Made by a program: the position numbers and the translations under genes
Part shown: positions 49,430 to 49,582 of the stretch, one piece after another
Layout: every line of letters starts with the position of its first letter
Position numbering within the stretch: position 1 is the first letter of the stretch
The notes under the pieces: generated by a model
Database searches by the model: none
Told to the model about the DNA's origin: nothing
The model's input: only the letters and a program-made list of their open reading frames with translations
Assembly (NCBI GenBank): GCA_028281325.1
Contig: JANQKC010000027.1
Span: forward strand, 1-64,000
Origin: Alphaproteobacteria bacterium
GTDB lineage: Bacteria; Pseudomonadota; Alphaproteobacteria; UBA8366
Reading direction: 5' to 3'
Length of the DNA: 64,000 nucleotides

Positions 49430-49582
49430 ATGAACCAAGGTAGATTATGGTGCGTGGTGAAACCGACGGTAGGACTGCCGCTGTTTCTTGGCGGCGTTGC
49501 CGTGATTTCGCTGATCGTCCACTTTGTGGTTCTAGAGAACTCAACGTGGTTCCCTGCGTTTATTCAGGGTGCTGCCGGCTAA
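49430..49582 (+). CDS. pucA: light-harvesting LH2 alpha subunit
   Basis: Hand translation (absent from ORF track): [50 protein letters not shown]; His31 ligand; 13 bp after pucB with GGAGGG RBS. Confidence 0.95.

Follow-up and report, generated by a model that had tools for sequence, protein, structure and literature searches.

A puc operon with a predicted LH4-like antenna and a proposed gamma-like repeat protein from a widespread puc-linked family

The puc operon studied here encodes a light-harvesting 2 (LH2) alpha subunit with phenylalanine at position 44, and between pucA and pucC it carries an additional gene for a 230-amino-acid repeat protein. Two questions arise from this arrangement: at which wavelength would such an antenna absorb, and what does the additional protein contribute to it? 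The operon lies in a 64,000-nucleotide stretch of DNA (positions 1 to 64,000 of contig JANQKC010000027.1; here referred to as the window) from a 5.12-Mb alphaproteobacterial genome assembly that is 98.9% complete. The gene order at the locus is pucB-pucA-(repeat protein gene)-pucC, and the features on which the analysis draws are as follows:

49114..49131, + strand: PpsR/CrtJ-type palindrome TGTC-N10-GACA, box 1 (exact match)
49140..49157, + strand: PpsR/CrtJ-type palindrome TGTC-N10-GACA, box 2 (exact match, 80 bp before the pucB start)
49237..49416, + strand: pucB, LH2 beta subunit, 59 aa (PF00556, 30.5 bits; PDB 7ze3_B, E = 3e-22)
49430..49582, + strand: pucA, LH2 alpha subunit, 50 aa, with F41, F44, I45, S27 and H31
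49696..50388, + strand: gamma-like repeat protein, 230 aa, between pucA and pucC
50458..51951, + strand: pucC, LH2 assembly/BChl delivery protein of the MFS type, 497 aa (PF03209, 477.7 bits, E = 4e-143)

The pucB gene ends 13 bp upstream of pucA, and the PucA protein scores 45.9 bits against the Pfam LHC model (cut-off 23). Residues 1-49 of PucA align without gaps to LH2 alpha subunits in the PDB (top match 7ze8_A, E = 1.8e-18), and because this alignment to solved structures is gapless, the residue numbering can be taken as right. An earlier note on this DNA had placed His31, Phe44 and Ile45 in PucA under canonical numbering, and both the translation and the alignment bear this out; Phe41, Ser27, the ORF for the repeat protein and the two PpsR-type boxes are additions to what that note mentions. 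The LHC signature, His31 and the gapless fit to 1NKZ/7ZCU-type alphas characterize PucA as a nonameric-type LH2 alpha with its N-terminal Met at the B800-ligand position, and from the length of the alpha N-terminus a nonamer is the most likely ring size. Residue 41 is also Phe, so that a known donor is absent at positions 41, 44 and 45 (F41 F44 I45). Only two LHC pairs are present in the genome, the LH2 pair in the window and an LH1 pair (pufBA) on contig C20, the latter adjoining pufL, pufM and a cytochrome-subunit gene (pufLMC; names assigned from reading translations). The same note had asked whether other puc operons in the genome encode a Tyr-containing alpha; there is none in the assembly, in which the window pair is the sole LH2 pair.

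The absorption of LH2 depends on the hydrogen bonds to the B850 acetyl groups, with two bonds giving a band at about 850 nm, one at about 825 nm and none at about 800 nm (PMC9618040, Table 1). In the B800-820 structure 1IJD, the LH3 of Rbl. acidophilus 7050, a single C3-acetyl bond is retained, with alpha-Tyr41 as the donor (PMC9618040). The window PucA resembles this LH3 alpha in having Phe44 and no Trp or Tyr at position 45, but has Phe41 in place of the tyrosine that makes the remaining bond. PucA with Phe41 is left without a known acetyl donor, and therefore an LH4-like band (about 800-806 nm) is better predicted than an LH3 band. The earlier note had proposed that both B850-acetyl donors were lost, that the band was shifted to the blue and that the complex belonged to the LH3 class at about 820 nm. 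With F44 and I45 in place, the loss and the predicted shift stand, whereas the assignment to LH3 is probably wrong in view of Phe41.

Two groups of natural antennas resemble the predicted complex. The PucD-LH2 of Rps. palustris (B800-803, PDB 7ZE3), an F44 variant without Tyr41, lacks the B850 bonds and has its band at 803 nm (PMC9618040), and the LH4 of aerobic phototrophs, with the motif F44-L45, has a single band near 800 nm (806 nm where tabulated) and is the exclusive peripheral antenna (PMC12654162, a 2025 review). Like the window protein, both have a nonameric-type alpha that is donor-free at 44/45, and LH4 in Roseobacter-type organisms is, like the window LH2, the only peripheral antenna. 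The window PucA differs from them in combining F/F/I at positions 41/44/45 with Ser27, and its absorption maximum is a predicted one. We consider it quite likely that the window PucBA has its band at 800-808 nm and is LH4-like, and an LH4-like antenna is more likely here than an LH3-like one.

The alternative, an LH3-type antenna in which the donor loss at 44/45 shifts the band only partly, to near 815-830 nm, and in which Ser27, as in Rba. sphaeroides, bonds to the C13-1 carbonyl of beta-B850, seems unlikely. It draws on alpha-Y44/Y45 double mutants of Rba. sphaeroides, which have lost both tyrosines, carry Ser27 as the window PucA does, and still have their band at 826 nm (PMC9618040). However, the natural 820-nm complex of the solved structure keeps a Tyr41 bond that the window PucA lacks, and the natural F44 variant without Tyr41, the PucD of Rps. 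palustris, gives 803 nm. The PucA of Bradyrhizobium BTAi1 (locus L080) likewise has M41, F44 and F45 together with Ser27, and its LH2 reportedly shows a single band at 803 nm, which also argues against an LH3-type band. The initial point about Phe44 becomes a sharper and testable spectral prediction, made for an organism in which the only LH2 is without any known acetyl donor.

To judge how common this type of alpha is, we compared PucA with its 80 nearest named relatives. Phe44 was found in 63 of them, and 53 of the 80 combine it with a residue other than Tyr or Trp at position 45, all but one of these (52 of 53) also lacking Tyr41; the Phe-Ile pair at positions 44-45 occurs in 6 of the 80. 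Since 53 of the 80 relatives share it, Phe44 without Tyr/Trp45 is unremarkable, and the window PucA probably represents an ordinary, already known natural antenna type. The records of the Phe44-type relatives bear the labels Alpha-, Beta- and Gammaproteobacteria, Gemmatimonadota and others, which may be wrong in the case of metagenome-assembled genomes (MAGs). Among the LH2 loci, five (L008, L018, L019, L033 and L067) stem from MAG records labelled Myxococcota, Anaerolineae or Longimicrobiales, reflecting either binning error or lateral transfer.

The two tandem palindromes upstream of pucB are the only exact TGTC-N10-GACA sites in the window (0.65 expected), and the photosynthesis cluster of the genome encodes a PpsR-like protein (PAS and Fis-type HTH, from reading the translation). 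The boxes and the PpsR-like gene together fit PpsR control of puc, and the operon is probably under such putative control. The PpsR-like gene adjoins a bacteriophytochrome-like gene (contig C20, L117 33-3474; from reading translations), an adjacency reportedly also found in photosynthetic Bradyrhizobium. Immediately upstream of puc and on the same strand is a TspO/MBR gene (48496-48969; PF03073, 162.6 bits); TspO modulates photosynthesis gene expression in Rhodobacter. AtuA-family and DUF4387 genes stand side by side at 46635-48341, downstream of a sigma-54 activator gene, and apparently form an unrelated catabolic operon.

The 230-residue protein encoded between pucA and pucC had no match in Pfam and NCBIfam searches, a single-sequence search of the PDB found nothing, and an NCBIfam search with the members of its family matched none of them. 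Foldseek comparison of its AlphaFold model with the PDB gave nothing significant, the best hit being weakly PII/NDPK-like (E = 0.18). The AlphaFold2 model, built on 71 homologues, has a confidently predicted N-terminal domain and a C-terminal repeat part that is mostly coil at low confidence (pLDDT about 55-70), located as follows:

49696..49995, + strand: N-terminal domain, YflT-like, about residues 1-100 (AlphaFold2 pLDDT 94-98)
50023..50376, + strand: seven repeats, starting at residues 110, 132, 148, 164, 180, 196 and 212

The YflT model PF11181 matches 19 of the 71 family members at E <= 0.1 (best 1.1e-5), the window protein itself being unmatched. The last six repeats of the window protein are spaced exactly 16 residues apart, and this period is a property of the family: averaged over 72 members, C-terminal self-similarity stays at background at nearly all lags except 16, 32 and 48, and at lag 16 it lies about 44 SD above shuffled sequences. 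Across the family 404 repeats were found, none of them within the first 80 residues, with 0 to 11 per member (commonest 4, 7 and 6). Their consensus is P-[LF]-S-S-x-[FL]-G-[LM]-P-x-L-[ST], in which the Ser at position 3 is conserved at 72%. One puc-linked member (L140 2569-3678, from genome G649 of family f26) has a different repeat pattern, MANWPIPLISRRKPADNFAFPRHAR, which suggests that lineage-specific repeat types exist in the family.

A 16-residue period is also found in a structurally known LH2 component. LH2-gamma of Rps. palustris is an extended ribbon whose six repeats run along six of the nine alpha-beta units, each repeat binding one BChl through a Ser, and a 2022 report describes it as confined to Rhodopseudomonas (PMC9618040). 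Gamma (PDB 7ZCU chain S) and the window protein share puc-linked genes and tandem repeats of the same 16-residue period with a G-x-P core, which reads G-x-P-L-[IL] in gamma. They differ in that gamma has no N-terminal domain and consists of about 100 residues with six near-identical repeats and Ser ligands at repeat position 6, whereas the window protein is 230 residues long and its seven repeats are degenerate. At the position of the gamma ligand, the window protein and its family have Phe or Leu in place of Ser.

The connection between the two runs through Rhodopseudomonas itself, which encodes a protein of two domains, the first being the N-terminal domain of the family and the second consisting of repeats of the gamma type; each of the three Rhodopseudomonas genomes inspected has the gamma gene as the ORF immediately downstream of it. 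A family HMM built without Rhodopseudomonas finds this two-domain protein (E = 2.4e-34 for the whole, 3e-14 for the N part and 3e-14 for the C part), and the two-domain protein matches gamma with E = 3e-23. When the family profile was searched against the PDB, LH2-gamma was the only significant match (E = 1.2e-4). Once the Rhodopseudomonas row is left out, the direct match to gamma is not significant (E = 0.43 and 0.044), and a small number of gamma sequences with columns permuted so as to keep the period reach scores as high as the real one; we therefore claim homology through the intermediate only. A distant homology of the 230-residue protein to gamma, by way of the Rhodopseudomonas two-domain protein, is supported by these comparisons.

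In an HMM search, a homologue was found near pucBA in 70 of the 80 named puc loci, in every case encoded on the strand of pucA and no more than about 4 kb away; some of the 10 loci without one have short flanks. A survey of 395 genomes of the class counted 12 as puc-bearing (four or more LHC genes); full-length matches occurred in 10 of these 12 and in none of the other 383 (Fisher p = 3e-18), and one further puc-bearing genome (G141) carries a divergent copy next to puc. A survey at the level of the phylum, covering 399 genomes, gave a homologue near puc in 11 of the 12 that are puc-bearing. Several of these homologues lie directly downstream of pucC, and one genome has a tandem pair, in keeping with the published gene order pucBACDE. 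The two surveys share two genomes, and combined they show the homologue in 20 of 22 distinct LH2-bearing genomes, the exceptions being G174 and G657. Cultured bacteria with the gene include Salinarimonas rosea, Bradyrhizobium BTAi1 and Rhodothalassium salexigens. As judged from sequence similarity and gene position, the repeat proteins beside puc are a widespread family, and the LH2-gamma ribbon appears to be one branch of this family, members of which adjoin the majority of the pucBA operons covered here.

The similarity of the N-terminal domain to PF11181, and weak matches confined to this domain in genomes without LHC genes, could mean that the 230-residue protein is a YflT-type stress-response protein that lies near puc by chance. 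This is very improbable, as full-length homologues follow LH2 rather than LH1 or stress genes (all 10 in genomes with puc, none in the remaining 383) and are encoded on the same strand as pucA in 70 of 70 loci. A role as a transient LH2 assembly or stability factor that binds no pigment, like PucD/PucE of Rhodobacter, and whose repeats touch the alpha-beta ring while it is being assembled, deserves more weight but is in our view doubtful. The window gene adjoins pucC, the pucBACDE-like positions of other members (directly 3' of pucC, and the tandem pair) point in the same direction, and the BChl-ligand Ser of gamma is not conserved. Against this, the 16-residue period shared with gamma, and the tandem arrangement with the gamma gene in Rhodopseudomonas, speak for a structural role at the ring. 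In the pucBACDE operon of Rhodobacter, PucD/PucE are also puc-linked and next to pucC, and family members occupy that place in f26 genomes, where their identification as PucD/PucE goes by gene position only; the window gene differs in preceding pucC and in having clearer repeats.

The explanation that we favor, and judge rather likely, is that the locus is a single-LH2 operon combining an LH4-like PucBA with a gamma-like ribbon subunit. PucBA would form a nonameric LH2 in which both B850 acetyl groups are without a hydrogen bond (F41/F44/I45), and the B850 band would move to about 800-806 nm instead of 820 nm. The repeats of the 230-residue protein would follow the outer rim of the ring on its cytoplasmic side, with one repeat per alpha-beta unit, lining about seven of the nine units and possibly carrying extra B800-type BChl, and its YflT-like N-terminal part would remain cytoplasmic. 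Both the ring contact and the BChl binding of this protein are what we infer from its sequence.

What is new here is the hypothesis of a puc-linked, gamma-like protein family, which has strong genomic support; the antenna type itself is known. If the hypothesis is true, a subunit may have been lost from, or gone unnoticed in, many of the LH2 preparations in the literature, and the function of the additional genes in puc operons, a long-standing question, becomes directly testable. A broader proposal, which we put forward tentatively, is that most LH2-bearing bacteria may encode, next to pucBA, a gamma-type ring-lining protein with one 16-residue repeat per alpha-beta unit and extra pigments, the gamma of Rps. 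palustris being a stripped-down, recent derivative and PucD/PucE of Rhodobacter further members. Another genome of the same genus (G001, 96% complete) has no LHC gene, indicating that phototrophy varies within the genus.
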